The position numbers were made by a program, and so were the translations under genes. A DNA stretch of 64,000 nt from Boothiomyces macroporosus (lineage: Eukaryota; Chytridiomycota; Chytridiomycetes; Rhizophydiales; Terramycetaceae). The DNA lies in NCBI GenBank assembly GCA_027604185.1, contig JADGKB010000049.1:37174-101173 (forward strand), read 5' to 3'. Of the stretch, positions 1-50,159 are shown in pieces; within the stretch, counting starts at the first letter, position 1, and every line of letters starts with the position of its first letter. The notes beneath the pieces are model-generated. The model ran no database searches, had not been told where the DNA came from, and saw nothing but the letters and a program-made list of their open reading frames with translations.

Positions 1-662
1 CTGGAAAAAGATTGTCAAAACAAATTACATCAAGTTCAGATAAAATGTCTACTGGAGAAATTTCAGGATCATCTGAAATCAAAACAACTTCCGATGGCAA
101 ACCACCAGCCCCTATCTTGCTCAAAATGCAAGCTCCAGTGCTAAGTAGAGATCGCTCATCCAAGATTAATATTACCAAAACACCTTCAAGTGGAGAGGTG
201 AAGGTTGCTGCTCCTATTCTTCCAAAGAAGCAGAATGAAGAGACAGCGAGGCAAAATTCGCAAGAGCTCCCAGCTGCCCCAGTTTTAGGGAAAATACAAT
301 TGGGCAACATAAAGCTACCTGCTGCACCAATTTTGAACTCGCCCATGCCTGAAACTCCAAAAAGTCCATTTGTAGATCAAGCAAAAAAAGCACCTGTGTT
401 ATCGTCCCAAGAAAGTGCCGCTCTAGAGCTACCAAAGAAAGTAGTAATAAGTGACCAAGCCCAGAAAGCCCCAGTGTTGAACATAAAGAAACCTGCAAGT
501 CTACCATCAACGGATAATACATCTGCACCAAAGTTACCGGATGCACCAAAGCTTACCCAAAAACTCACCATTCCAGCTTCTGTGCTAGCTCCCAAATTAG
601 CACCAAAGCTTGTGCCCAAAGAAACCAGCCAAGATAGCGCGAATTCGAAACAAGAAACATAA
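1..662 (+). CDS. Low-complexity protein with A-P-[IVK]-L repeats, 5' end outside window
   Basis: The reading frame is open from the left edge to a TAA at 660-662, so only the C-terminal part (about 220 residues) is visible. It has no recognisable fold. It is rich in Pro, Ala, Lys and Ser and repeats short motifs of the type APVL, APIL and APKL, often preceded by Lys-Lys or Lys-X, roughly every 10-25 residues. Such spaced hydrophobic motifs in a disordered tail could be binding sites for a partner, but this is inference. The MscS channel gene follows 128 bp downstream on the same strand. No function is assigned. Confidence 0.6.
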   Translation, partial: GKRLSKQITSSSDKMSTGEISGSSEIKTTSDGKPPAPILLKMQAPVLSRDRSSKINITKTPSSGEVKVAAPILPKKQNEETARQNSQELPAAPVLGKIQLGNIKLPAAPILNSPMPETPKSPFVDQAKKAPVLSSQESAALELPKKVVISDQAQKAPVLNIKKPASLPSTDNTSAPKLPDAPKLTQKLTIPASVLAPKLAPKLVPKETSQDSANSKQET

Positions 663-790
663 GTCTTAATGAAATTATTTCTCCATCTTCCATATTTTGC
701 CTCCCTTAATTTGTGGGAGGCGCCCACTTCCTTTTTTGTGAATTAAGAGTTTGAAACCGATTATGGAAAATTTAGAATATTTTCGAAACA

Positions 791-2965
791 ATGGGTGATT
801 CCAATACGATACGGCAGCGCAACGGGACTTTATCAGAGGCGAATTTAGTCCACACATCGTCCAGATCGATCCCTCCTGTGACGTATGTACTGTCTGAACC
901 ACAGCAATCCCAACAAAACACTCAACCTAGAGAATCACTATCTGATATCGAGGAGGAAGTGACTGAGCGAGACGGATTTATTACTAGAATTTTCAAGCTT
1001 AGAGGGTTTGTTTCATTTATCTTTCTCCTGGTTTTTGGAACTGCGATTTTGATTTCTCCAACAGTGAACATTGTTAGGACTGATCCAAACGCATGGATAG
1101 ACTTTCAACAAAATACCACTGCATTAACCTCCCAGACCCCTAATCAAATAGTTGTCGTTTGGTACGTGGAACTAACAGTAGGTCGGTTTTCCTTTCCGTA
1201 TCATGGATTATATTCTTGGGGACCTGGTTCACCTTGCTTTCACTACCCGTATTTACAATCGAAGTTATTGAGCGATTTTATGGAACATGCAGCGAACAAA
1301 CTAGGCAAACGCTAGCTTATATACCGGAATTGCAAGTTTGGCTTTCATTGATGATTTGGGCAATCGGAAGTGTTCTTGCGTTTAGGATTATATTTCTTCA
1401 GCTTGTTCAAGTCAATCCATGGGAGAACATATTCAGCTTTTTCTTGTGTGGAATGATATTCACGATCGTACTGTTCTTCCAAAGACTTTTTGTTCAAAAA
1501 ATTGCTTTTGACTTTCACAAGTAACGGGCTTTAATGGTAGGGTCGCGTATGAAGAGCGCATGTCTCAATCTCGAAAGGCAATTGACATTATTGAGCATTT
1601 GCGTGGTGCTTTAGTTGGAAACACGAATCTATTCGGCGATCTATTTGAAAGTGAGAAAAACGATATGAAAATTCCTGATCCTGTTAGTGGAGAAGATGAA
1701 CATGTTGGTAAAGATGATATGCCTCAAGATCAAGAACCTCCACCTCGACAAAGAAAATCTGTATTCAGTTGGTTCTCGAAAAATCAGCAACAACCTATTC
1801 CGCAAGATCGCAATAGTATAGAAATCAAGGTGGAAGAAGGCGACTCGCTTACTCGAACATTGTCGCAGAAAAGCAAAGTCCCAACAGGTAGCAGAACTGC
1901 CAAGAGAAAGACTTTATCGAAAGAAGCTAAAGGAAACTCATTCTTAACTTGGGATCAATTTAAATCGGCTCTAAAGATTGGCGGCCTCGGGGCAAAAAAG
2001 TCAAAAGGCATGGATCTGTTGTCAGACAGACATGCAACCTTTTTGTCTGAAAAGCTTTTCGGAGTATTAAGAAGCCCAGATACTAATGAAATATCTGTTG
2101 GCTCTTTCTTTGCTTACTTTGATCAGGAAGAACAGGCAAAATCAGCATTTGCACTGTTTGACAAGGATGGAAATGGCAGTATTAACCAAATGGAGCTTAA
2201 ATGGGCCATTCTTCGAATCTACAGGGAAAGACGCAACTTGATGAAATCACTAAGGGATCTATCTAGTGCTCTTGGAACCTTGAATGACTTGTTGTACGGG
2301 TTCTCTATTATTTTATCCCTTTTGCTCTCCTTACCAGTGTTTGGCATTCCTATCACTACGATAGTGCCATTTTCCACGATTTTGGTCGGTCTTTCATTCA
2401 TGTTTGGTGGAACAGCCAAGGTAACCTTTGACTCTATTATATTTATATTTGCAGTACATCCGTACGACGTGGGAGACAGAGTTTTTATTGACGGTAACAA
2501 TTATGTTGTGGAGGAATTCAATATTCTCACTACAACCTTCACAATTGACGGACAAAAGATTTACATACCTAATGGTAACTTTTTTAATTTACATTAGCTG
2601 TCTTGAATGGAAAAACCATCATCAATGTTCGACGATCGACAGATATGTCTGATTATATAACTATCAAGGTTGATTTCAACACACCTGAATCCAAACTAAA
2701 AGAGCTACAGGCTAAAATGATTGAGTTTACCACCGCGCAATCCCGAAACTTCCGCCCTACTTGCTCGATGGATTTCATGGACATGTCTTCCTCAGGTATG
2801 ATTACCCTGAGATTCTCTGTTGATTTCAAAGGCAACTGGCAGGATGGAGCTAGGAGATGGGGAAGAAGAACCGCTTTCCTGTTTGAACTAAAGAGACAGT
2901 TGGAAAACCACGGAATTTGCTTCGAAATGCCGGTTCAACCAGTTCGTATGATTGAACGAGAATAA
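791..2965 (+). CDS. EF-hand mechanosensitive ion channel, MscS family
   Basis: Four exons joined by introns at 1162-1181 (20 nt), 1521-1540 (20 nt) and 2575-2597 (23 nt) encode about 703 residues. An acidic N-terminal tail is followed by several hydrophobic segments, a basic cytosolic stretch, an EF-hand loop (DKDGNGSINQME, about residues 444-455), then the MscS pore and beta region with the GGTAKVTFDSIIFIF and HPYDVGDRV motifs. EF-hand plus MscS is the architecture of fungal Msy1/Msy2-type channels, which release ions on hypo-osmotic swelling, in Msy1/2 from the ER. A zoospore without a cell wall would need this. Start is the first ATG of the frame. The first intron could instead end at a CAG 3 nt upstream, which keeps the frame. 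Confidence 0.88.
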
Positions 2966-3120
2966 ATTATCGTCATGTATTTCTCTTACTGTTCGGAAGT
3001 ATTGATATTGGATGGTTTCTAAGCAGTAGTGGTATCGCCCTGGCAGTATTGCTAGTATCCCACTCATGGTTGGGATCTCTTAAAACTGCGTGACTATTTT
3101 GCCATTTCAACACCCAATCC

Positions 3121-4032
3121 ATGAAGTTGAACCTCTCACCAATAACTAAACTCATTACCAACCAAAGATCAGTGAATCTATCTGCCAAGAACATTGTCAA
3201 CACCATACTACATGGAAACGTAAAAGCCGAGGACCTCAACGAAACCTATTCCAAGTTACTCGCCAGAGGCAAATCCATACATGAGCTCGCTATCCACAAT
3301 GTAAAACCTGAAGCAATGAGCGATTATATTGCTGCAATGAAGGAATTCCAACCAAAGTTGGTAAATGATCAACGAAAGTTGTTTGGTGTTTGGGAAAATA
3401 CTGTGGGAGAGTTGGATCAAGCTGGTACTATTGAGCTAATCCAGTTCACATATGGGAGTATGCCGGATACGAAGAATTCCATGAAGCAAAGATATTGAAT
3501 CGAAACAAGGCAAGTCAATAGTAACACTAGGTTAATGATTGCTAATGCAGGGGGTTGATGGACAATTTGAAAAGACAATCAGACCAATGCTCCGTTCTAG
3601 AGACTCGCAAATTGTTCTCGAGTTTGCTTTCTGGAATGCATCGATTCCGCATGAACAGGATATAATTTACGAACTTCGCACCTATCTATTGAAACCAGGA
3701 AAGCTACTTGAATGGGAACAAGGTTAGTTTGTATTAACATTAGGATGGTAATTTGTATTGATACAGGCGAATGGGATTAGAAGCCAGAAAGCAATATGTC
3801 CAACCTGTAGGTGCATGGTTTTCACAGATTGGTCATTTGAACTATGTCCATCACATGTGGGCATACCCTTCGTTACAAGACCGTAAAACTATGAGGGAAG
3901 AAACTTGGAAAGAAAAAGGATGGGGAGAGTCTGTCAAAAAGACCGGTAATTCTAATTAACAAAGTTGGACTAATCGATCACATGCAATCGAGAATCCTTA
4001 CTCCAATCATCTTGAATAAAAAGCCTCTTTAA
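3121..4032 (+). CDS. NIPSNAP family protein, mitochondrial
   Basis: Six exons totalling 792 nt give 263 residues. The gene matches animal NIPSNAP in order: a mitochondrial-type N-terminus, the DQAVHIWEYAGYEEF region, LEFAFWN, YELRTYLLKPG, FSQIG and the HHMWAY block, then a short C-terminus. NIPSNAPs are mitochondrial matrix proteins linked to mitophagy signalling; their chemistry is unknown. Introns are 3425-3444, 3510-3550, 3723-3743, 3748-3766 and 3946-3964. The third and fourth flank an exon of only 4 nt (3744-3747) that supplies most of a conserved Trp codon. The 3510-3550 gap is 41 nt, begins with GC and looks like two abutting introns. Length matches the family (about 280 in human). Confidence 0.9.
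3510..3550 (+). other. 41-nt intron made of two abutting intron-like units
   Basis: After codon AAG the sequence reads GCAAGT...TAACACTAG (21 nt, 3510-3530), immediately followed by GTTAAT...CTAATGCAG (20 nt, 3531-3550). Both units have a branch-like TAAC or TAAT near the end. Only removal of all 41 nt keeps the NIPSNAP frame; removal of either unit alone meets a stop or shifts the frame. Confidence 0.55.
3744..3747 (+). other. 4-nt internal coding microexon of NIPSNAP
   Basis: Bases GATG lie between a 21-nt intron (3723-3743) and a 19-nt intron (3748-3766). Removing both restores the frame and gives EWEQGWRMGLEA, aligning its second Trp with the conserved Trp of animal NIPSNAP (EWGNNWARA). 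Skipping the whole 44-nt interval breaks the frame. Confidence 0.75.
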
Positions 4033-4120
4033 TAAAGATTTCATATTCCTTGGTAAAGCATTTCGATTCAGTCACTAGAATAATTTGAATCACGCTTGAA
4101 ATTTCTTACGCGTTTAACAG

Positions 4121-7100
4121 ATGCAAATTAGGTAAACAATAATCAACCGTAGACATTTGAAATCTATAATATTGCCGGGGGACTCGCCGAACAGAGTCAC
4201 TGCCCTTGCATGGTCCCCAAACAATCAGAAGTTGGCTATCGTTACAGCAGACAGAATAATCCAACTATTTGACGAAACTGGAGAAAGAAAAGATAGATTT
4301 GCCACTAAACCAGCTGATTCCAAAGTACCTCAATACTAAAATAGAATATTAGATCTTATTTTGTATGCGGTTTGGCTTTTTCACCAGATTCAACAAAGTT
4401 GGCTGTAGCTCAATCCGACTGCGTCGTATACGTTTACAAATTGGGTTTGGACTGGGGAGAAAAGAAATCGATTTGCAACAAGTTTATTCAAACCGCCGAT
4501 ATCACCTGTTTAACTTGGCCAAAAGAGCAACACAACGCAATAGTGTTTGGATTATCAGATGGAAAGGTGCGAGTTGGAAATTTGAAAACAAACAAAGCGG
4601 CAACCTTGTATCAGACAGAGTCTTGTGTTGTATCTGCCGTGAGTAACGTTGAAGGAAACGCAATCATTACTGGGCATTTGGATGGTACAATTAACAGATT
4701 CTTTTTTGACGATGGAATATCTGGAGCTTCTCAAGGAAAGTTTTGCACTCATTCGTGCCCTCCAATAACTCTGGCATGGGGAGAATCCATCATGGCCGCG
4801 GGACCAGATAGAACTGTAGTATTCTACGATGCTGAAGGAAAAGTGTTGCAAAAGTTTGATTACTCGTCCAACCCAGATATCCAAGATTTTACGGTTGCAG
4901 AACAGAGCCCTTCTGGACAGTGTATCGTCATTGGCAGCTTTGATAGGTCCTTTATCGCTGATTTAGGTTGCATATCTTCAATTATTTGATTTCCAAAGGA
5001 CAGTGGGAAGAAGCTCAAATGAAGACCATCGAAAACTTTTACACTGTTAGTGCGCTATCTTGGAAACCAGACGGCTCCCGCTTAGTAGTGGTAAACAGAA
5101 TTTTAAACTTAGGGAAATATGAATAGTGCAGTTGAATTGTTTGATTGTTGTCTTCGAAGATCAAGGTACAAGGGGAAATTCGAGTTCAACTATGTTTCAC
5201 CAAGTCAAGTAATTGTCAAGCGATTGTCTACTGGGTCAAGAATCGTCTTGAAATCACACTACGGATACGAAATCCAGAAAGTGAATATTTTCCAAGACCA
5301 ATTTTTAATCGCAAATACGCCTGAAACATTGCTAATGGGAGATTTAGCCAGTTGCAAACTTAGTGAGGTGCCATGGACTGGAAGTGGAAATGAAAAGTTT
5401 TACTTTGAAAATCCGCATATCTGTATGGTGTTTAATGCCGGAGAGCTCTCTTTGGTAGAATACGGTGTAAATGAACTGTTGGGATCGTGTAGAACTGAGC
5501 ACATGAGTCCTCATTTGATCAGTGTACGAATCAATGAAACCAAAGCAGATGACGAAATCAAAAAAGTTGCTTATTTGGTTGATTTACAAACAGTGCAGAT
5601 TTTGGATTTGACAACGGGATTAACAATTGCTACCATATCCCACGATTCTAAGATTGATTGGCTTGAACTGTCCGGGAAAGCAAACAAACTTTTATTCAGA
5701 GACAAACGAAGGCAGCTGCATTTGTATGATATTAAATCCATGACTAGAGTTACGCTGCTCCATTTCTGTAGCTACGTACAGGTAAGTTCTACTTTGATTA
5801 TAGTGGGTTCCAAACAGTGATGTGGTTGTTGCTCAAAGCAGAGGAAACTTGTGCATCTGGTACTCTATTGATAGCCCAGAAAGAGTGACAATGTTCCCAA
5901 TTAAAGGGGAAATTGAGGATATTGAAAGGGCAAATGGAAAAACAGAAGTTATAGTCGATGAAGGGGTCAACACAGTTTCGTACACACTTGATGAAGGACT
6001 AATTGAGTTTGGAGCTGCATTGGATGACAAAGATTACGAAAGAGCCATTGCGTTGCTAGAAACTTTAGAAATGACTACTGAAACAGAAGCAATGTGGAAA
6101 AGCCTGAGTGCTACTGCATTAAAAGACCAAAAACTAGCAATCGCTGAAAGATGTTATGCAGCTATTGGTGATGTAGCCAGATCAAAGTATCTTCATAACC
6201 TGAACGATATTATTGATCAAGCAGGAGAGGAAAATCCGGATGTAATATTCTCTAACATTAGATGGAACCAAACCATTATGTTGTTCGTGCCAAACTTGCT
6301 GTACTAGATAGACAATTCAAAGTTGCTGAAAACATCTACCTTGAAAAAGGAAAAGTCGAAGAAGCAATGGAAATGTATCAAGAGATGCACAAATGGGACA
6401 TGTCCATAAAAGTTGCTGAGCTCAAGAATCATCCAGAGCTGGATACGCTGAAGAAAAACTACTTCCAATGGCTGATTGATTCAGGACAGGAAGAAAAGGC
6501 AGCCCAGATAAAAGAAGAAGAGTATGACTACATTTCTGCGATAAATCTATATTTAAAGGGTGGTTTGCCTTCCAAAGCTGCTCAAGTTTTAATCCAAAAC
6601 TCCTTGTTCAACAACGTAGAATTAGCCGAAAGAGTTGCTGGTGCACTGTACAAGGGCGGAATATTTGAAAAAGCCGGAGAGCTTTATGAAAGATTAGGAG
6701 GCAATGAACGAGCTTTAGACTCTTACAAGAAAGGAAAAGCTTTCAGACCGGCTGTAGATTTGTGTAGAGTATTATATCCTTCTGAAGTAGTAAAATTGGA
6801 AGAAGTAAGTAAAAATTGACGTTAGCAATGGGGTGACTATCTCATGACCCAAAAGCAGACTGATGGTGCGATAAACCACTATATAGAAGCAGGAAAATCA
6901 ATCAAAGCTCTAGAAGCAGCGATCTTGGCCAAGCAATGGAAAAAAGCTGTTGGAATAGTAGATACTTTGCAAGCAACGGACCAAGCAAAACCATATGTGC
7001 TACAAATGGCTGAGCATTTCAAATCTGTTGGGGAAACAAATTTAGCCGAAAAATACTATGTGGAAGCAGGTAAACCGCAAGAAGCCGTAGAAATGTACAC

Positions 7101-9520
7101 CAAAGCCAACAAATGGGAAAAGGCTCACAGTTTGGCAATCTCGTACATGTCCAAAGAAAATGTATCGAATTGGTATATTTCACAAGCAAAAGAAATGGAA
7201 TCTCAAGGTAAACTGAAAGATGCAGAGAAATTGTATATAACTGTTGGAGAGCCGGATTTGGCGATAAACATGTACAAAAATCATCAAAGCTATGATAATA
7301 TGATTCGGTTGGTTACTCAATACCACAAGGATTTATTGACAGAGACTCATTTGTATCTTGGGAAAACTTTGGAGTCAGAAGGAAATTTAAAGCAGGCAGA
7401 ACATCACTTTATTGAAGCGAATGACTTTAAATCTGCGATAAATATGTATTGCTCAAACAACATGTTTGAAGAAGCATACCGAGTCGGTAAAACACACGGC
7501 GGTCCAAATTCTGCTAAACAAGTTGCATATCTGTGGGCTAGATCACTCGGCGGAGAAGCGGCTGTCAAATTACTCTCAAAATTCAATTTGCTCGATTCTG
7601 CCATTGATTTTGCAACTGAAAACGGAGCTTTCGACTTTGCTTTTGAACTATCGAGATTTGCAGATAAGCACAAGCTTGCAGATGTTCATTATAAACATGC
7701 AATGTTTTTAGAGGACGAGGGAAAATTCAAAGAAGCAGAGACTGCATTTATCTTGGCAGGGAAGCCTAGGGAAGCAATATTAATGTACATTCACGACGAA
7801 AATTGGGATGCCGCACTGGCAGTAGCCGAAAATTACGAGCCGGTTAGCGTGCCAGAAGTATTAATTGGGCAAGCCAAAGTTTGCTTTAACAACAACGAAT
7901 TTGCTAAAGCCGAATCATTAATATTACGAGCACAACGACCTGAACTGGCAATTAAAATGTACAAGGAAAGCAACAACTGGAAAGAAGCCCTTCGTTTCAC
8001 AAAACAATATGTTCCAAACAAGGCTGCCGAAATTCACCAAGAATACGATAGATACTTGTCTGGCCAATCTGATGCAGGTAAAGATCACATTATCAAAACT
8101 GCTAAATCCTTTGAACAACAAAAGGAATACTTGCGGGCAATTGAAATGTATCTCAAGCTTTCGACATCCCACACTGACGATTTGGACTTGCTTGAAGAAA
8201 AATGGGGAAGGGCTGCAGATCTGGCAGTGAAATTTGTTCCTGAAAAAGGAAAGGATATTGTAATTACTGCATGCAAAAAATTGGTGGAGATTGGAAAATA
8301 CGATACCGCTGGGGAGTTGTACGCTGGAATAGATCAATTAAAGGATGCCATCGATACTTTTATCGCTGGAGGGCTATGGGAAAAGGCAAGACATATCGTA
8401 TCCTACGCTCCAAAGTATACAGATTATGTGGAATATGCTTATGTTAAACACTTGAAAACTGCTGGACAAGGCGATGCACTGGTTGAAGTTGATGTGAATG
8501 CAGGCTTGGAAGTTTTCGCTCAAAGGGGTGAGTGGGAAAAATGCTTGGAAACCGCTGCTGCTGGTATGAATATTGAGATTCTAAGCAAATACCTTGCAAG
8601 CTATTGCACTCTTTTGGTAACTCAAAGCAATTACCATACTGCAGTCAATGTAATCAACCAATATGGGGCACCTCCTTCTCAAAATATTTTGGAATTATAC
8701 AAGAGGATTTCTATTGCAGTTTTGAAGGATAGAAATTCAACTCCAGAAAATATTGCTTCGTTGAGAAATATGCTCTTCCAATTAATTCATGGAACAGGAA
8801 TCGTCGCTAATCCTAAATTACTGGAGGCATTTGGATTGTATCTTACAATCGCTCACTACATGAATCTTCATTACATGTGCTCCAAAAAACGAGATTTGCT
8901 CTATTTCGCAGCAAAGCAAGCAATATCTTTACTGAGATATACAAATATCTTGCCAGCAGACAAGACTTTCTTGGAGGCTGGACAAGCAGCAAAGGTAACA
9001 ATTATTAATACAGAATTCTGGGATGCTTTCAATGGCATTTGTCTGTTGGAATAGATATTTAGATTTGACTGAAGCCATTGAAGAAGGAGATCTCTCGCTG
9101 ATCGAAAACACAGACTTTATCAATACCGATGTTCCATTTGATGTTGAGCTTCCATCAGAAGTCATTCAAGTACATTTCCACTAACAATAGAATGAAAGGA
9201 TCGAGCAAATCAGAGACTGGGTTCTTCAAGTATCGCTGGACCAAAAAGTAAACCAAGAAACAGACAAGAGAGAATGTGAAAATTGCAAGTCTTTAATCTA
9301 TGATGCATCACTGAATTGTTACAATTGCAAAAAAGTCTATGAACCGTGTGTTGTTACAGGGTATCCACTATCTAGAAACAAAGTCAAATGCACCACGTGC
9401 TCTAAATTTGCAAACAAAGATGATTGGAACAAATACGTAATGATTGAAAGGGTAAACTCGCATTAATCGTAGACTTGTCCATGGTGTAGATCTAGCCAAG
9501 CTCCTATTTACTTTACATGA
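4121..9520 (+). CDS. IFT172: Intraflagellar transport protein IFT172
   Basis: Eleven exons totalling 5193 nt give 1730 residues, close to human IFT172 (1749). The N-terminal half is WD repeats ([30 protein letters not shown]), the rest a long TPR/alpha-solenoid, as in this IFT-B subunit that carries cargo along the axoneme. The first coding exon is only 11 nt (4121-4131). Introns are 4132-4152, 4325-4344, 4947-4966, 5091-5112, 5782-5803, 6242-6261, 6805-6825, 8995-9013, 9170-9190 and 9452-9472, all 19-22 nt, each supported by restored homology to IFT172. The C-terminus has paired Cys motifs (CENC, CYNC, CTTC, CPWC), consistent with the zinc or U-box-like domain described for IFT172. The organism must build flagella. 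Confidence 0.96.
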
Positions 9521-9600
9521 TTGAATGAAATCAATACTATAATTTATTGTTTAACTTTTTCATGTTGTTTGATAGTTCCACCTTTCTGAATTAGAAAATA

Positions 9601-10667
9601 TTACTTTAGACTCCTGCCATTGTTTATACGGCCGTTGGACATGTCCCACTTTCCTGTTTTACTGTTAAACACATAGTTCTGAATTAGCAAAGTGTACTTT
9701 ATAGTATGGTTTGTCTCTATATTCTCTTTGCAACACCTTTTGGTATTGGTTTGGCCGCCACGTAGGGATACCTTCAAAAGTAGTTCTAACCAATGGGAAC
9801 AGTTGTTCATAGTTGTAATATCGAGGGGTTTTGCAAGATAGAAATCTTCTGTACTCTGACACACCTGTAATATCTATAAAATGGCCATTCCTAGTATCTA
9901 TAAATCTAGCATCGATGACATTATTATCCTGCTTTCCCCTGACTACATGGTTGTGGTTTACTTCAAGAATATACTAGTATAAAAGTGAATTACATGATTG
10001 GCAATAGTTTGGTTTTGATATTTTCGTAAATCGTACAGACTGTTGGCAACAACTTGTATATCAATATCGTCATCAAATGGCATCGTTCTTCCTCCCCATT
10101 TCCATCCCAAAAGCGTGCCGTGCATTATCCAGTAGGGTATCTCTACTGAATCACTGAATATTGCCCTTGAATTAATTCAAATTACCAGTTTTTGAATAAT
10201 TCGTGTATAATAAGGAGCTTTTGCTTATGGTCTTCATATCCGCCTGAGAATCTGCTATCGAGATGGTGAATCTTTTCGTCCTCGTAAAAGTATTTCAAAT
10301 CTTTGTTCTGCGCCAAAGTTGTTGGCGGCTCAACGAAGCTCTGTAAAGTAGGCAACAGACGGGTTCCTAATGGAATCTCAAATGGGTATCCCTCTGGATT
10401 CTTTTTCCTTTCCCATTTAGTAAACGTATGCTGTTGATCTGGCGGTAATACTTGATACTGCACTACACACTCCGGTCCGCATCCTGTTAAAGTAACGTCT
10501 GACTGGTACGGCTGTATCAAAATAGGTTGCTGTGTTGAAAAAACTTCAACTTCAAAGTTATTATCCGTTTCAAAGAATCCAAATACATATAATACCGCAA
10601 GGTTCAATATTACCGAGCTTGATATAAATATACATCTAGATCTACGTAGTGTTGGAAGAAGATACAT
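9601..10667 (-). CDS. Membrane-anchored LicD-family (fukutin-like) phosphotransferase
   Basis: Reads right to left, with introns at 10166-10185, 9974-9993 and 9679-9697; about 335 residues from the ATG at 10667. A short basic N-terminus and one transmembrane segment (about residues 12-32) suggest a type II Golgi or ER protein. The lumenal part has the LicD signature: MHGTLLGW (about 175-182), then PFDDDIDIQV with the acidic metal and nucleotide cluster (about 190-199). LicD, fukutin and Mnn4-type proteins transfer phosphocholine, ribitol phosphate or mannose phosphate to glycans; which group is moved here cannot be told. The open frame continues 63 nt upstream without an ATG, so a further upstream exon is possible. 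It converges with IFT172 across 80 bp. Confidence 0.8.
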
Positions 10668-23023: not shown

Positions 23024-24915
23024 CTATTTATGTAATATCTCGCTTACTATATTCTGCTTGTGCATATTCCATGACTGCTGCTGCAAATATTGAATTTGCA
23101 ATTCTTTTATAGGATACAGAGTGTTACTTTCTGTAAATATAAACTTGAAAAGCAAATCTTTGGGAACAATTTCGCAAAAGTCATTCAGTGGTATTGTGGC
23201 GATGGTAACGGGTGAATCAGCTTTGATACTGTATTTGTAATATGTAATTTTGTCGTTCGGAGGCATTTTCGTATACAGTTGAACGTAAGAATCTTTGTGC
23301 AGCTTTTCCGGTCCTAAATACTTTAAATTTGTTGGCTGGTCAGGCAACAGCGGTATATCTGGAAACCAATCTCCAGGTTTCAGTGTCTGCGTAATCAATT
23401 CCAATTCAGTAATTGTTTCCTTTTCACCGCTAGGAATTGAAAATATTTGTTTCCCGTTTAAATTCTTGCAGTGGAATGATACACTGCGAACAATTTGACA
23501 CTTTCCGTCAATTACCCAAGATAACTCAAAGGTTTGGCCTCCTTCGTGGTGAATCACTTCGCCTTTGGGATAATTATAAATTTGAAATAGGCCAGAAATC
23601 TTTTCTAGAATTGAAATATGGTTTGAAAAGATTCGAACGGAGGAAAGAGCAGATTCAAGCTTTTGCTTCACAAGAGCCCTTTCGCCGTTATTTATAAACT
23701 TTGTTAGTAAATTGCTACTTCCTGGTAGTCGTCTAGATTAATTATAAAATACCTTTTGTGATCATTAATAGTTTGGAATAGGCAGTTGTTGCTACACATG
23801 CACTCCTTTTTACTGTCTTTGACTGCAGCCCTCGTTCTCCGATATTCCTTCCCGGATTTATCAAGTTTACCTATGTTAGTTGTTTGTACTCTTAATTTAT
23901 ACCCGTTGTCAAATTTAAACACCTCTACCTGACCAGAAAGTAAAAAGTAAAAGTTGGTTGCAGGGTTATTCTCCTTCATGAGGATAGTTCCTTTTGGGTA
24001 TTTTTCAAGTTGCATTGCTTGGCAAAAGAAATTTCTTTCATTACTTGAATATCTTGCAAAGTCTGGCATTCTGAGAGAGAGTACCTTTTCCAAATTAGAG
24101 ACTGTTTCTGGACTTCGTTTGAATGCCGGCTCTTTCAAAGATGCTTCTATTTGGTGAATATATGCCTCGCTAGGCTCGACAATCTGGGTTTTTAGCATAT
24201 ATGTCAAAGTGCCAGCATCCAAAATCGGTAACTGGGTCAACCGTGAATAGTTGGATGTTGTAATTGATCTATATGCTTTTGAAAGCCTTACAGCAAACTG
24301 CTGTGTTCGGTACAAGAAGAACCATCTTTTTCTGATATGCTTTTCCAGATTCCTGGTTTTCACTTTTGAATTCCCTGCTGGTTCAGGAATGCCATTCGCG
24401 TCTTTTTTGATTGACGATACCAGATGGCTTTCCAACTTTTCTGCAATGTTCAATTTCATTTCTAGTATCAGGTTGGATTACTAATTGGAGCACTAGCTTT
24501 GGATTTTTGAATATCTTTGGGACTGCTGACTTTATGTTCTCCTGCTGTCTTTAGGGAATTGATTGATCCTAATGATTTATTCGGGCTATCTGCTTTCTTT
24601 TGTGGGGAGCGGGAAGAAGAGGGGTTTGCTGTTGTTGGCCTGGTGGAGATTCCTGTTATTAGTATAATCTTCACCTTCTTGCGAACTTTTAAACTCGGAA
24701 AATGATTGCACTACCTTTGCAGGTTTATGTCTGCTACTTTTTGGCGAATTCGAGTTAGGTGGAGCTATCATTTTTTCCGTCATGCTTGACATACTGCAAG
24801 CAGCCAGTCTAATCTTGGGAGAAGCTTCCGCGTTATATGAGCTATCCGGGATTTCGTTTGATTTCTGAGGGCCATTACTGATGACTACCGGGGTACTCGG
24901 TTTCACAGACTGCAT
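23024..24915 (-). CDS. Cyclic-nucleotide-binding domain protein (CNBD2-like), copy 1
   Basis: Starts at ATG 24915 with a Ser/Pro/Lys-rich disordered head, followed by helices and a cyclic-nucleotide-binding domain: YPKGTILMKENNPATNFYFLLSGQVEVF. The phosphate-binding cassette appears only after removing a 19-nt intron, giving NPGRNIGERGL...KRSACVATT with the key Glu and Arg. Two more 20-nt introns restore ITKDDYQE and the junction to FINNGERAL. A second CNBD-like beta-roll follows (YPKGEVIHHEGGQ to the C-terminus). Introns were confirmed by aligning with the neighbouring paralog. Such proteins can sense cAMP or cGMP, for instance in zoospore motility. The stop abuts RPGRIP1L's stop. Confidence 0.75.
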
Positions 24916-24983: not shown

Positions 24984-27900
24984 TTATTTAACTATTTCAT
25001 TAACAACAGTCTTCTTGTGATTAATCCACATTTCCTGTTGCAGATATTGATCTTGAAGTTCTTCGATAGGATAAATTGTAACACACGGTTTTACCACCAT
25101 TTCAAATATTACTTCTCTTGGAACCAACTGCAAAAAGTCTGTGTACGGCATTGAGGCAATTATAACAGTAGAGTCAGCAACAACGCTGTATCTGGAATAT
25201 AAGCGCTTATCTTCAGAACGCATCTTTGAATACAGTTCCACATAGTCATCTTTCTTTAGTGCGATGGGCCCTAAATATTTCAATTCTTGGGGGTTATCCG
25301 ATATTATTGGCAAGGAAGGAAACCAATCCCCAATAGACAAGACTTGTGTGCATAGCTCTAGCGTGGTATAGTTGTCTTTCTTTGCTTGATCTGGTACAAA
25401 TGGAGATAAAACTTGCTTTCCATTCACCATTCTAGTCATAAACGACACTGCACGATTGATTTTACAGCTGCCTTCAATAATCCACGACAAATCGAGAGTT
25501 TGCTTGCCTTCTTCCTGGATGACAGTATTTTTCCCAAAGGTATAGATTTTAAAGAAACTCGAAATCTTTTCCAGTACGTCTTCATATTTATCAAACAGCT
25601 GCATGTATTTCAGCGATTGAACCATGTTTTCCCTCATTGCATTGTTTTCACCTCTATTTACAAACTAGCTCAGACAACAAATACCTCGAGATATTCTTCC
25701 TTGGATATCCAAAGCAGCATTGTATCAGTGGTAGTTGCTGCACAAGCAGTTCTTTTGCTACCAGGAAGATTAATCCGCAGTTCTCCAATAGCTGATCCGG
25801 GATTTTTCAGGTTCAACTAGCATTAGAATCAATCACCCTATACTTGCACTCGCCTTCAAGTTTAAATATCTCCACTTGGCCACTAAGCAAAAAGTAAAAG
25901 CAAGTTGCAACATGGTCTTCCATCATCAACAGTGTGTCCTAAATAAAAACCATTGTACCTTTTTATATTTTTCTATTCTCATTGACTGACAAAAGAATAT
26001 TCGCTCATTAAGCGGAAATTTTCTAAAATCTTCCATCCTGTAACTCAGCATTTTCTCCAAAGCTGTAACATCTTCTTTTTTTCGTTGGAACGGCTCATCT
26101 TTCAGTAATGATACTACTTGGCTAATGTAGACCGGATTAGGCTCCACTATTTGCACCCTCAACAAATAGCTTAGGGTTCGAGCATCTTTGACTGGTACTT
26201 CGGTAACTTTCATGTAATTCTTTTGCTTGTACGATTTCAGTATTTTCTGCGCCAGTTCAAAGGTTCTGAATATTAACACCCATGTTTTGCGAATGTCTTT
26301 GTCAATTTTCTTTTTTGTAACAAGCGCTTTCCCTTGACAACAATTCAAGTCGTTTGATCGACACACTAAGTTACAAGTAATTTACGCTCTTCAGCATTCT
26401 TCAGGTCCATCTCATGCTCCACTTGCTTTACAATATCTTTGGTAGAGCTTTTAAGCAACTTTCGAAAGTCTGCGACTGATTTATGGAGAATATTAGCGTT
26501 TGACATTTGTTTGGATTCCAACTTGTTTGTACTAGTATGTAGCAATGATTGCAAGTTTTGAGAGAGCATTCTATTCAATTTTGGAGGCTTTAGTATATTT
26601 TCTTGGGTAGAGTCGGTCTCATCATTTACAAATTGCTTTTCATTGGAGGACCCTTGAATCATAATTATCTCTGGATTTTCAAGAAAAGAGGTATGAGACT
26701 TACTAAGGTTCCTTTTCCTTTCGATTCCTTTAATTGATTCGTTAGTAGTCAAATCTGCTGAATCTACCGTATTTTCAACGACAGGCGGGACATTAATCTG
26801 CACTGTTTTCATACTATATGATCGATCAAATTCTAGAATTAGTATTTCGATTACTCTTTCTATCGTTCTCACTCGTATTTACAGTCTCTGGTACTTTGTC
26901 TTTTGTATTAGTCACGTTTTCCTTGCTTTCAGTTTGATTATCATCCACTTTTTCCTTGCTTTTCTTTACTATATTTAGGGCTTGATTACTTGACGGTACT
27001 CTTTTCGGTTCTTGGATGGTGTTTGTTGAGCCCAACTTGCTGTTTTTCCTAATTTGATGAGTAACTGGATTAATCCAATTTTACCACTCAAGTGTGAGCC
27101 CATAGATGACTTTGACCTATTCGGAGAGTCCTTTAGATCATTTTTCAAAGTGTCTGTTTCTTGGTTCAATTCTTCAGAAGCAAATTTACTCTGTTTACGC
27201 GTTGAAATGGAAACTGGTATTAAATTAGTCGTACCATTCACTTCAGACCCAACATAGGATTTCGGTCTTTGTCTAGTTTGAGGTCTAGGATTTTCAAAAG
27301 ATTAATACCCATATACCTTCATCTGAATGAGTTTTTTCCTTTCCTAAATGTGTCAAAATAGTAGATTTCTTTGTCGATTCAATTGTCAATGATTCTAGTA
27401 ATAAGAAAGAATATACTGCCCTTGTCACTTCCCGTTAAATCTGATTTTGATCTCTCTCTTATAAATACCTGTGCTTCTGAACCAGTTTTGGATTTAATCT
27501 TCTCGCTATCTTTTGCTGCAATTCCTTTTTGATTTAGTTTTTGCTCAGTGAGCGATTTTTCCCTGAATGTTGTCTTTTTTGACAGTTGGTTTTCTGATTA
27601 GTGATGCAATACCTTGTTTTTGCTCTTTCGTGATATCACCATTTGATATCCCACCCGGAATTTCTGGGCTCTTTCTTCCTTCTGATTGTTTCCTTTGCAA
27701 CATAAATTCGCTGAGGGTAGTAACCCCCGGCGTCTTTGCTGTTTTTTGACGTGGTAATTGGGTATCTTGGTCGCTTTTTACTACGGCTCTCTTTCCATCC
27801 TGAGGATCTTTTCTCTCTTCTTTTTCTACTGGAGATACTGGATTCAGTTTTTTTGTATTGTGTCTACTTGGGGGAGAGCCCATATCTGGAGTATTCACTT

Positions 27901-36248: not shown

Positions 36249-39200
36249 TTAATTCGCAAAGGCGCTTGGACACGCTATTACGTAAATACTGTCAGAGCTT
36301 TTGAGAATCAAACTCCAAGGTGGATTTGTAAATACAAATGGTAGGACATTGCCGAGCTCGTCGTCCACATCTCTTAAAAGCCCGATTGGAATCACCCCAA
36401 GCGTCATACATAGATTGTAATACAGTCTGCCAAACGTGCCATCTACGAATTCCCTTGGAACTTTAATTGATCTGAGGGTTGCAAGTTCAAATTCAAGCAT
36501 GCTATCGATTTCACTATCAACCTTGTATCTGACACCACACAACACATTGAAAACATTTAAAATTGATGGTTGATGATATGTAGAAGACAATATCGACTCC
36601 ATCATGATTGGTGCCACCACACTTCCAGTGACAAACATTGGGGAATAGTGAATATCCTCAGTTGGACCATTATCATCAACTTTACCCATTAACCTTCTTC
36701 TTTGTTTTGGTGCAAAGTGAACGCTTCCAGGGCTTAAAAATTTGATATTGGAACGCTTTCGAAGTTCTACCACAGCTGGAGTTCGAATGCCTTCATGTTC
36801 ACACATTTTGTAGATAAGGTTGGAAGCCATTATTGTAGAACTGTCTGCCAATCCATCAGCACCATCTGGTGATGGAACAGCGTTAGGATGGATATGATTG
36901 GACAGATTTGTCAAAACCACACGGTAAGCATGGAAAAGCCCCGCTCTTCTAAGGTGTTGTGCTTTGTGCGATTCCCCACGGATAAAGTAAATCTGGGGGA
37001 AGCAATGGAATCTTTGAAATTCCTGCATAGAAGGTGACTTTGGACACATCACTAGAATCGGCTTCAAATCCTCACTTCTAATTTGAGAAGATCGCAGCGT
37101 AGCAATGAAACGGAAAATATGGTAATCGTTAGTACAAACTAGAATATGCTTCAAGTTGTCTGCATTTTGTAAAATTACCTCTTGAAGTTCCTGGACGGGT
37201 TCAGGCAACAACCAGCAAAGAGGAACTTTGGAGTTGTGCGTCTGAGGTGGATAACCCACAACATATTTTGAGTTATATTCATCCTTGACATTCAAAGTGT
37301 CCCTCGATAGCTGCGATTTTTGATTGTAAGAGCGTAAACTTAGACTGACTGTATCCCGAGTTCTGTCAAACTGATCCTCAGTCAATTCCGATATTTCCTG
37401 TAGCACTGATCTGGAGTTTGCAATGACAAACAAACAATCCCCCTTCTTCAAATTGTACTTTAATCCAGGATTTAAAGCAACATGGTGAATATCGTTCTGA
37501 GGAATATAGTAATGCATTCCAAAGGTAATCACTTGAAATTGCCTGTACAAGTATAATGAAATGGTGGAAAATGAGCGACCAATGAACAGTGGATTCAAAG
37601 GGATCTTAAAAATTTCGTTTTGAGCCCCCTAATTTTAAATGAAATCTACATCTGCATATTGAGCCTGCCATGGAATATCAAAGTGATTGTAGTTTTTAGT
37701 ACCGCGAAGAAGGTTGATCATTAAAGTTCCGATTCCACGATAAATGCAATTGTAAGCTAGGAAAATTTGTTTGAATTCATCGATGCAAACAACTAATATT
37801 AGCAAATATTACTTCCGCTTGCCAAATCTTCTTGCAAGTAGGCGGTTTGAGGCAAGATAGTTTCAAGGTAAATGGGTGTATCTGGGGCAAATTTGTCAAA
37901 CGCCCAAGCGCGCAGAGTGTTGTGCTCATCTTCTATTCGGTGGTTTTCAGCAGTGTTGCCTTGAAGTTAATTTAAAATTACTAGCAAGAATAAAAGATGC
38001 CTGCGCAAAGTGTAACTGAACTCTTTCAAAATCTGAATTTTCGAGTCCGCTTCCTTGCAGGAAGGTCACTCGTTGTTTTAGGGAGTAGTGATTCAAGTGA
38101 TATTTCAACTCCTCTGTAATTGGAGACCTTGAGAGTAGAACAACCTTCATTGTCTTTTTTGGATCCTTGAATTAGATTATGCTTACTTTTCTGAATACTT
38201 CTTTAATCATTTCAACTATTCTTGTTGTTTCTGTTAGATTTCCACATATAACCAAATACGGACTCTTTCCTCTGGTGTAATGGCCAACACCGGACGATTG
38301 AATCTTTATAGTTTCAGTAAGATCAGTGGCAAGCCCAGGCAATAAAGTGATACCAGCAAAAATAAGAATAATAATGACAATCTGTCCAGGGATAGTTTTT
38401 GGCACAATATCACCGTAACCAACCGTAGACATTGTAATAACCATAAAATAAAATGTTTCAATGATTCCAAGCAGCTGGCCACCATTTTCTCCGGCTTTAC
38501 CAGTTAACTGGTTCTGCAGACCAATTGTATTTGGGAATTTCGTTTCAAAGTAGTTGAAAGAGCAAGCCTGTATTAATCAAATGTACCTAATAGTAAGTAA
38601 AAACAAACCCCAAAATAAAGCAGTACCCATATGTAAGCAAGGAGAATTATCAGCTTTTCTTTATAGTCGCTAAAGTTGACAGGAGACCACTGCTTTCTTA
38701 GGCGAAGCACTGATTTCAAATTTGGGACTAATAAAAAGATTCTTAAAAAGTATGGAAGGTCTAAATTAATAATAATTACAGATATATCTTGACCCAGGAT
38801 ATCGAGATAAGGCAATGAATGGGATAATAATGGCCAAATCCAACAGAGTCAAAGGAGATGTCAAATAAGCTCTCGCGCTATCTACAATAAATACACTCGT
38901 AAGAACCAAAACAGCCAACTGGATGACTGCCAGTCCAACCATTACGTGAAATGTTTCTTTAGGTCTGTGCATCAATATCCATGGTGGTAAGCCAGTGTCT
39001 CCACAGTAATTGCTATTTGAAGTGCATGGTATTTCAGCATTATCTTGAATTTCAGAAAGATAAAAAATGGTAAATATAAAATCAACAATCAACGCCGTTA
39101 TGGACTACGTTAAAATCAATTACCAGCATCCACCGGTTTCTAATTACAACTTCACGAATCTTTTTCAGCTTTGATAAAGTTTCAACAATGTAAACTCTGA

Positions 39201-47628: not shown

Positions 47629-50159
47629 ATGAAAATTCTGAATCTGATATGCGTAATTACATTTGTGCAGTGTAATTACAACGATTCAATGTTCTGGGTG
47701 AATAGACCGAACTTGTACTTTGGAACCAGAACCAGAGCCCCTGAGACATTGTTGAACGGGTTGATGTGGTTTGGAGTGAACGAAATTGGTGAACGTGCCT
47801 GGGAAAGTATCTTCACAGACTCACTTAGATGTACGGCATACCTGCGAACAGGACGAAACCTTATCAGGATACGCCTGGAATAAGCATAATGGGTTGGACT
47901 ATGGATCACAGATTATTAAGGACAACCGGTACAATGTTGCGATAAAGACTGAATTTATCAAAGTAGCGGGTGCTGGTGGTAGTTTAATCGTAATATAGGG
48001 GCGGACTGGGCTGTTCGTATTACTGGGGAGCCGCTGGATGCTGAAAAGTGTAAGTGATTATTGAAAAAGCATCTGATATTTCTTTGATATACTATCTTGG
48101 ATTGGACGGCAATGACGGAGAGCTTCGAGTAGCTTCGAATGATGAAGATTCGGTCAAGATTCTTGGTGATGCAAGCTATTTAAAGAATTTCAAATTCCTG
48201 GTAAACGACCGTGCTAACACCCACCCATCTTCAGCAGTAACTGAGTGCTTAATTATAGGTATCAACATTCTAATCTTAGAAAATCAATGTTGCCAGATAC
48301 AAGATAGACGGAGGAAACGTGTGGCAAGTCAAAGACCTGGTTGTCTCGAATATCGTCCAAGTCGCCCAGAGGATAAACAATCTCAATACTTCTCCAGCGG
48401 AATTATTCAAGATGGATGATCCCGAGGCAGCCAATCCAAACTTGATTGTGGTTCAACACATGCTGACTGCACCATTCGGTTTATCATGATTAACAAAGTT
48501 GTTGAATATGCTTTAATCACTCAAGACAATAGCGGAGAAATATATTTTGGGGAATCGCTTTCTAAATTGCTGGAAATATACGAATCAAAGTTCGACAATG
48601 AATTTGAAAATGTATTTGAGTTGGCAAAGAAAGGATATGACGAGTCACAAGTACAATTTGGAAAGATGTTACTAGGAAATATGCTAGGAGGGCTTGGTTA
48701 TTTCTATGGCAGTGGGATAGTAGACAATAGTCCTGAAATCGAAGAAGATTTGGAAAACTCTGATTATTTTGAAGGTGATGTTGATGACCAGGAGAAGGAA
48801 GTCTATGGTCCAGCTCTTACTGCACCTTACAAGTTATTTACCGGAGTGCCAAGCAGGCCATTTTTTCCTCGTGGTTTTTTGTGGGATTCTGGATTTGACC
48901 AACTCTTGATTTCCGAGTTTAATGCCGAAATAAGGTTCACTTTCCTCTAATTCAGTATGGACATTATGAATCATTGGGCAAATTTGATTGATGATAATGG
49001 ATGGGTTGCCAGGGAGCAAATTTTGGGGGATGAAGCTAGGAGCAAAGTTCCCAAGGAATTTCAAACACAATATACATATTATGCAAACCCGCCTACTATG
49101 GTTGGTGGATTGAGAAAAATTTTGGAAATTATGAAGAAGCCTTTCATAATAAGTACACCATATATAATCTTTAGATTCAGATGGTTCGCAAAGGGCAAAG
49201 ATAGATGGAATTCAATTTCTCAATGAGGTTTATCCAAAATTCAAGTCTCAGTACGAGTGGTTCAAATCTACCCAAATAGGAGAATACTCTGACTGGTACA
49301 TGTATTTGATATAGGGATTACAAAACTCCTGTGGATATTGGATTCAAATGGAGAGGGAGAAAAGACTCGCACATTCTTACAAGTGGTAAGCTTTTATTAA
49401 TTAGGACTCGATGATTACCCAAGGTCAACTATTCCACACTCTGGAGATTTGCATCTGGATTTATTGTCATGGATGATCTGGTTTGCCAAAACTTTGAAAG
49501 AGATTGCTTTTGAGCTTGACCTAACTGGTGACTCTCAAAGGTTCAAACTTGAAGAACAAAAAATGATGCAAGTTTTGGAAGAACTACACTGGGATGAAAC
49601 AACTAAGCAATTTTGCGATGTCAGTTTTAAAAGCAATGGTAAATCAATTTTCAACCAGGTGAATTCTATCATGTACACCACAAGGGATATGTTTCGATTT
49701 TGCCTTTAGCCTTAGGGTTACTTCCAAGTGATTCAACGAAGCTTGGCAAAACTTTGGAATTACTGTACAATTCAAATGAACTCTGGTCCCCTTTCGGCTT
49801 ATGCTCCCTTTCTAAATCGGATGAACTTTTTGGTCAAGGAGGTAGATTAGCGTTTATATAGAAAACTATTGGAGAGGTCCTATCTGGGTAAACATAAACT
49901 ATTTGGTACTACAATCATTGTACCAAAATTATATTCACACCCCTGGACCGTACCAACAAAAAGCTACCAAAATTTACAGTGAGCTACGGGAAAATCTTAT
50001 TAATAATGTGTACGTTCAATATTTGAAGACGGGTTATGTTTGGGAACAGGTAAGAACATATTGATAAAGTATTCGTGTTTGGATGGTGTTGGTCAGCGTT
50101 CTCGTCCATTTACTGGTTGGACATCTTTGGTACTGTTAGCGATGTCTGAGAAATATTAA
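47629..50159 (+). CDS. GCS1: Mannosyl-oligosaccharide glucosidase (glucosidase I, GH63)
   Basis: A signal peptide (MKILNLICVITFVQC) then about 740 residues in roughly 13 exons. Diagnostic blocks match human MOGS: NRPNLYFGTRTRAPETLL, RHTCEQDE, FFPRGFLWDSGFDQLL, REQILGDEARSKVP, FKWRGRKDS, SGLDDYPRS, WSPFGL, NYWRGPIWVNINYL and FTGWTSLVLLAM. The acidic residues in FLWDSGF and in YVWEQ are the expected catalytic region. The enzyme trims the terminal glucose from N-glycans in the ER. Introns are 19-26 nt, except 48237-48279 (43 nt), which looks like two abutting units. There is no transmembrane anchor beyond the signal, unlike the human type II protein. Confidence 0.92.
48237..48279 (+). other. 43-nt intron made of two abutting intron-like units
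   Basis: GTAACT...AATTATAG (22 nt, 48237-48258) is followed directly by GTATCA...TAATCTTAG (21 nt, 48259-48279). Excising all 43 nt joins PSSA to KINVARYKIDGG in frame; leaving the second unit meets a TAA. Confidence 0.55.

Follow-up and report, generated by a model that had tools for sequence, protein, structure and literature searches.

A predicted 4-nt exon between two introns of about 20 nt in a chytrid NIPSNAP gene, and candidate exons of 0, 2 and 3 nt elsewhere in the genome

The NIPSNAP gene of Boothiomyces macroporosus very probably contains a 4-nt coding exon, GATG, between two ordinary introns of the major class, each about 20 nt long, which would each be defined as a unit and removed sequentially. 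The gene occupies 3121-4032 on the forward strand of the window, by which we mean the whole 64,000-nt stretch of DNA that was analysed; positions without a contig label refer to it. An earlier note on this DNA had proposed the 21-nt intron, the GATG exon and the 19-nt intron, and its letters and coordinates proved exact. The NIPSNAP identity, the two introns, the 4-nt exon and the junction CAAG-GATG-GCGAATG all find support in our analysis, so that the observation can be regarded as confirmed at the level of prediction. What had been described as the peculiarity of a single gene is better seen as one instance of a wider pattern, since other genes of the genome have predicted exons of 0, 2 and 3 nt. 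The better claim is one about the genome as a whole, in which splicing appears to be defined by the intron and to set no evident minimum on the length of an exon.

A 4-nt exon in the NIPSNAP gene

The gene runs from the start ATG to the stop and encodes 263 aa once spliced, and our splicing by hand agreed with that of a self-trained gene model. The spliced protein scored 129.1 bits against Pfam PF07978, and among 113 relatives the best was that of Globomyces sp. JEL0801, with 62% identity. Intron GTTAGTTTGTATTAACATTAG (21 nt, phase 1, 3723-3743) lies upstream of GATG (3744-3747), and intron GTAATTTGTATTGATACAG (19 nt, phase 2, 3748-3766) lies downstream. The exon would contribute two bases of a Gly codon (G/GA) and two of a Trp codon (TG/G). 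Splicing in this way gives EWEQGWRMGLEARK, and the corresponding stretch of the Globomyces protein is EWEQGWRIGLEARR. The Trp is strongly conserved: 108 of the 113 aligned relatives have a residue in that column, and in 107 of these it is W. The microexon locus is also present as a 100% identical copy of 841 nt on a second contig, C100.

It had been claimed that only this solution keeps the frame and recreates the Trp, and the second half of that claim held, whereas the first was too strong. When we enumerated splicings of a 100-nt stretch, allowing up to two GT/GC-AG introns with a minimum length of 12 nt each, 22 were in frame and stop-free, including four with a single intron, and just one of the 22 restored the Trp of EW...W..GL. 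With a 15-nt intron minimum and a slightly shorter stretch, there were 12 such splicings, three of them with a single intron. The microexon splice scored 361.3 bits against a family profile, compared with 337.7 for the best of four scored alternatives; those rejected were one intron of 58 nt, one of 61 nt, one of 64 nt with GC-AG ends, and a solution with two introns and GC, at 326.1 to 337.7 bits. There is a mild circularity in these values, as the profile was built from relatives retrieved with the microexon-containing query; the Pfam model is independent of that query.

Both flanking introns have GT-AG ends, a U2-type donor consensus and a branch motif near the 3' end (TTAAC in the 21-nt intron, with its A at -7), and the model scored them at 10.2 (21 nt) and 10.7 (19 nt), with a median of 9.6 for all introns. 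At 4 nt, GATG falls within the usual definition of a microexon as 15 nt or less between two introns. The arrangement is neither a stwintron nor a ratchet point. The introns lie side by side and each is complete, with neither interrupting a splice element of the other, and four bases (3744-3747) are retained where a ratchet point would have AG/GT abutting and nothing kept; such an AG/GT does exist in this gene, at 3530/3531. To judge how often such a structure arises by chance, we permuted the interior of the 44-nt stretch, holding its first 6 and last 12 nt fixed, and obtained two equally good intron-like halves in 5 of 20,000 shuffles. The corresponding numbers for two other composites were 70 (MCM7, L013) and 0 (a 3-nt exon, L020).

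Introns of about 20 nt are the rule

The genome carrying the window consists of 15.2 Mb in 216 contigs, and the best named matches of its IFT172 and NIPSNAP proteins are from chytrids. Our gene model was self-trained on the window and twenty 10-kb stretches (264 kb in all), its starting point being a flat distribution of intron lengths between 13 and 200 nt together with generic values for donors and acceptors. It found 425 introns, of which 414 were 18-24 nt long, with a mode of 20. The signals that it learned were a GTAA-like donor and a YTRAY-like motif whose presumed branch A lies 6-7 nt from the 3' end. An in-frame stop was present in 82 of the 108 introns whose length is divisible by three. 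With a fixed flat prior of 18-80 nt, 325 of 388 introns fell at 18-24 nt. The shortest exons in the 264 kb were of 0 nt (seven, not all of them convincing), 3 nt (one, L020) and 4 nt (one, in NIPSNAP), and the next was of 14 nt.

The IFT172 gene of the window has 10 predicted tiny introns. Two relatives align to it, one at 67% over 1097 residues (two gap positions) and one at 65% over 945 residues (four), and the aligned stretches cover five of the 10 introns.

Tiny exons in other conserved genes

Three further genes repeat the NIPSNAP situation, in that a predicted exon of 2 to 4 nt completes a conserved motif. In a PDI-like gene (L045, C27:47345-48088, minus strand), a 4-nt exon, CATG, makes the thioredoxin motif APWCGHC and, as in NIPSNAP, splits the Trp codon TG/G; among eight enumerated splicings it was the sole one to restore the motif. 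In VPS4 (L052, C25:33268-34207), the P-loop LLYGPPGTGKS is completed by CC, a 2-nt exon with a 19-nt intron on each side, and only this splicing of nine restored GPPGTGKS. The third is a 3-nt exon, TAT, in a gene of the YggS family (L047, C6:231400-232140, minus strand), which supplies the Tyr of GENYIQEL. It was the one restorer of GENY among five enumerated splicings, and with it included the score against the YggS model was 115.3 bits, up from 105.1. Intron size, splice motifs, reading frame and homology could be established at several loci from sequence, and by their frame and conserved motifs the 2- and 4-nt exons indicate that neighbouring tiny introns would be removed separately.

We also searched the whole genome with a strict pattern of two introns with k nt between them, using the same pattern read backwards as a control. 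The counts include overlapping matches within arrays and copies on duplicated contigs, and the pattern is expected to find ~17% of pairs, assuming independence of one intron from the other. There were 26 matches versus 2 in the control for k=0, 15 versus 0 for k=3, and 1 versus 0 for k=1. The frame-neutral spacings 0 and 3 therefore stand out; going by numbers alone, spacings of 1, 2 and 4 do not.

We viewed 18 of the 26 k=0 matches: 13 in ten fetched stretches and five in L011 (two), L013, the window and L043. Nine of the ten fetched stretches parse as abutting introns within coding sequence, and the other five matches do likewise; the match in L028, presumably a U2AF35-like gene, is false, as its first half codes. 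Nine of the 15 k=3 matches lie on contig C103, and of the eight inspected there, six parse as 3-nt exons and two are partly coding. Outside C103, five of six parse as 3-nt exons in context, and one (L048, which we take to be RanBP1-like) is false, its first half again coding. The supposed 1-nt exon of the k=1 match (L054) parses as one intron. Both k=4 matches were fetched, in L045 (the PDI-like gene) and L046, as were two of the three k=2 matches, in L052 (VPS4) and L053; the support for L046 and L053 is an open frame only, which in L046 continues through the match.

Intron arrays and proline-rich genes

Abutting introns also occur in longer arrays, with four in a row in L026, three in L027, two of which are identical 19-mers, and three in L030. 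A methyltransferase gene (L011) has three abutting introns at the motif H-N-A-W/D-N-V.

In a formin (L037, C103:30300-31900; FH2 domain, 101.4 bits), 31 introns are predicted within 1.6 kb. Twenty of its 30 internal exons are of 3 nt, nearly all of them ACC, and lie inside a run of Pro codons. The parse is imperfect, with some intron-like units that lack in-frame stops left coding, and the 3-nt exons are presumed to be included, since skipping them would keep the frame. Contig C103 carries one more proline-rich gene (L036, C103:2300-5300), with 43 predicted tiny introns and poly-Pro stretches that would be cut into 3-nt exons; a Pfam search with it gave no family. Four consecutive putative 3-nt exons are predicted in a gene with an OB-fold domain of a DNA polymerase delta subunit (L038, C172:5500-6300).

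For 20 adjacent pairs in 14 arrays that we chose, the mean likeness score of adjacent introns was 6.05, compared with 3.67 for random pairs. At the 5% level, four of the 20 pairs, counting the identical one, were unusually alike and 16 were not, which does not show that all abutting introns arose by tandem duplication.

Spliceosome components

Searches for U1, U2 and U6 small nuclear RNA (snRNA) genes gave U2 at 142.2 bits and U6 at 62.2 bits, both above the cut-off, with U1 marginally below it. The host thus has the major-spliceosome snRNAs that were sought, and we take the standard 5' end of U1, the branch-pairing element of U2 and the ACAGAGA element of U6 to be present in these genes. Because a MAGOH gene is also present in the genome, the tiny-exon pattern is not attributable to loss of this exon-junction protein.

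Alternative explanations

The NIPSNAP stretch could instead be read with one 58-nt intron (3723-3780), which joins EWEQ to EARK and dispenses with the microexon. This intron is in frame, stop-free and bounded by GT-AG. However, it removes the six residues GWRMGL, including the near-invariant Trp, at a cost of 23.6 bits against the family profile and 13.4 bits against Pfam (115.7 versus 129.1), and its length is far beyond the 18-24 nt of nearly all introns in the model set; we give it very little credence. Removal of the 44-nt stretch as a single GT-AG intron is conceivable, although it would shift the frame, and the gene would then be a pseudogene or carry a sequencing error. Elsewhere, however, the gene keeps its conservation and its frame, over 263 aa, and the same letters stand in two contigs. 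The rarity with which shuffling matched the inner AG and GT with their branch-like motifs, and the same arrangement in other genes, also speak against a single intron, and we regard this reading as highly improbable. Typical fungal introns are far longer than ~20 nt, and the shortness of the insertions might suggest that they are non-spliceosomal and are lost in another way, by DNA elimination or ribosomal bypass. Yet they have GT-AG ends and a branch-like motif, genes for U1, U2, U6 and MAGOH are present, and the segments are still in the assembled genome. Of the explanations considered, we find this the hardest to believe.

A further possibility concerns the 0-nt and 3-nt cases only: the composite might be excised in one step, with the inner sites as relics. 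For 0-nt exons, one step gives the same mRNA as two, and skipping a 3-nt exon keeps the frame. Duplication can make copies, as the identical 19-mers of L027 and the greater likeness of adjacent introns illustrate. On the other side, the inner sites retain full motifs even though 16 of the 20 adjacent pairs are not unusually alike, and where the exon is of 2 or 4 nt, the frame would be lost if everything were removed in one step. We consider one-step removal unlikely for the 0- and 3-nt cases, while still taking it seriously there.

Several observations count against GATG as an exon between two ordinary tiny introns, or against the wider pattern. The strict genome pattern missed the NIPSNAP pair, and its counts, taken by themselves, do not lift 2- and 4-nt exons above chance (3 versus 3 for k=2; 2 versus 1 for k=4). 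The branch-like motif of the 19-nt intron is TTGAT, with its A at -6, and TAAY is commoner. The intron model is our own and was trained on itself, and with the flat 18-80 nt prior 63 of 388 introns exceeded 24 nt; many of these look spurious by eye, and some may be real. Finally, U1 scored 68.8 bits against an Rfam cut-off of 69.5, that is, 0.7 under.

A proposed mechanism

We infer that GATG is present in the NIPSNAP mRNA and that its two flanking introns are removed separately, in sequence, by the major spliceosome; such sequential removal appears to be the simplest mechanism. Each 19-22-nt intron holds its own donor, YTRAY-like branch motif and AG, so that the spliceosome could define it as a self-contained unit. 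The two NIPSNAP introns would be excised one after the other, and after the first excision GATG would sit in a long exon and the second splice would be normal. No step would then have to recognise a 4-nt exon, because by that point GATG belongs to a long one. The earlier suggestion that recognition of 4 nt between two such introns challenges exon-definition models is weakened accordingly: as the introns here look like self-contained units of ~20 nt, the exon itself need not be recognised. The same logic would permit 3- and 2-nt exons, and also zero-length exons, where two introns abut and their junction regenerates the second donor, as happens in recursive splicing. As to origin, a second intron may have been gained at a distance of 4 nt from one already there, since frame-neutral duplication cannot produce a 4-nt spacer.

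A broader proposal, which we favour with less assurance, is that this genome combines an intron ruler of ~20 nt with no lower limit on exon length, making exons of 0, 2, 3 and 4 nt routine. Intron arrays, among them the rows of up to four abutting introns and the formin with introns between its single proline codons, would expand through tandem duplication, either of an intron alone or of an intron together with one codon. Splicing itself would then let codon repeats and arrays spread with no harm to the protein.

Relation to known systems

Work on splicing has long asked how small an exon may become and whether it needs to be recognised at all. The tiny exons of plants and humans have neighbouring introns long enough to hold extra signals, and the introns around the plant APC11 and VPS55 microexons are of ordinary size. 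Flanking introns of ~20 nt leave little room for enhancers, and the predicted exons here form a graded series of 0, 2, 3 and 4 nt in conserved genes. If confirmed by RNA, the pattern would mean that this organism can do without exon definition and that a minimal set of spliceosome signals can be read from the genome. Annotation usually imposes a minimum intron and exon size, and standard gene annotation would miss or break such genes.

Human MPC1 has a constitutive 4-nt exon, and its minigene includes exons of 4, 2 and 1 bp and is still spliced when the exon is cut to 0 bp, where two distinct lariats arise (PMC9929638). This result supports the principle of sequential removal of introns around a tiny exon; NIPSNAP shares the 4-nt exon, but its bordering introns are just 21 and 19 nt. 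In plants, 1-nt microexons in APC11 and VPS55 have been confirmed by RNA (PMC8831610). There, as here, exons shorter than a codon are placed by reading frame and conservation, although the plant ones are isolated cases, whereas here tiny exons are predicted from sequence to recur between ~20-nt introns. Uniform tiny introns are described in Mikrocytos mackini (16-17 bp), a symbiosis-derived genome (18-21 bp) and heterotrich ciliates (15-16 bp) (PMC10245619). Those lineages resemble the present genome in an intron size fixed at ~20 nt or less; they are unrelated to this chytrid, and exons of 0-4 nt are not mentioned in the passages on them.

Stepwise removal from juxtaposed acceptor and donor sites is also the principle of the ratchet points in Drosophila recursive splicing (PMC8605326). 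Ratchet points lie in long introns, whereas the steps here are of ~20 nt and GATG is retained in the predicted NIPSNAP mRNA. Fungal stwintrons are likewise complex introns excised in consecutive reactions, but they are nested, with one intron in a splice element of another, whereas the introns here lie side by side. We found no report of ~20-nt introns in chytrids, or of microexons between tiny introns, among the open-licence titles and abstract openings listed, and passages of a Rhizophydium genome paper mention introns just as a program option (PMC13391722).

Further introns and duplicated segments

The NIPSNAP gene has additional predicted introns on the forward strand, on which hand splice and model agreed. 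Excision of GTACTATTGAGCTAATCCAG (20 nt, 3425-3444) yields DQAVHIWEYAGY, and excision of GTAATTCTAATTAACAAAG (19 nt, 3946-3964) yields TVGLIDHMQSRILTPI. Between them, the model parsed a GC-AG intron-like half of 21 nt (3510-3530) that abuts a GT-AG half of 20 nt (3531-3550) at AG/GT, making either a zero-length exon or a single 41-nt intron. Equally good halves arose in 89 of 20,000 shuffles, and under the flat length prior the model gives the single 41-nt intron.

Elsewhere in the window, an abutting pair of 22 and 21 nt with a zero-length exon (48237-48279, forward strand) lies in a predicted gene at 47689-50159. The model found it, the strict pattern matched it (C49:85410-85452), and equally good halves arose in 30 of 20,000 shuffles. 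A pair at minus-strand 25393-25433 (plus-strand 38568-38608) was equalled in 4093 of 20,000 shuffles, which puts it no higher than chance, and was not counted, and a model parse at minus-strand 23468-23528 was set aside, as it requires a 42-nt intron.

Contig C49, which carries the window, has at least 9.9 kb in common with C100, 99.96% identical (window positions 32-9932; C100:38800-48700), as haplotype copies or a recent duplication. On C20, the same abutting intron pair occurs twice, letter for letter (66642-66680 and 111709-111747), perhaps through local duplication.
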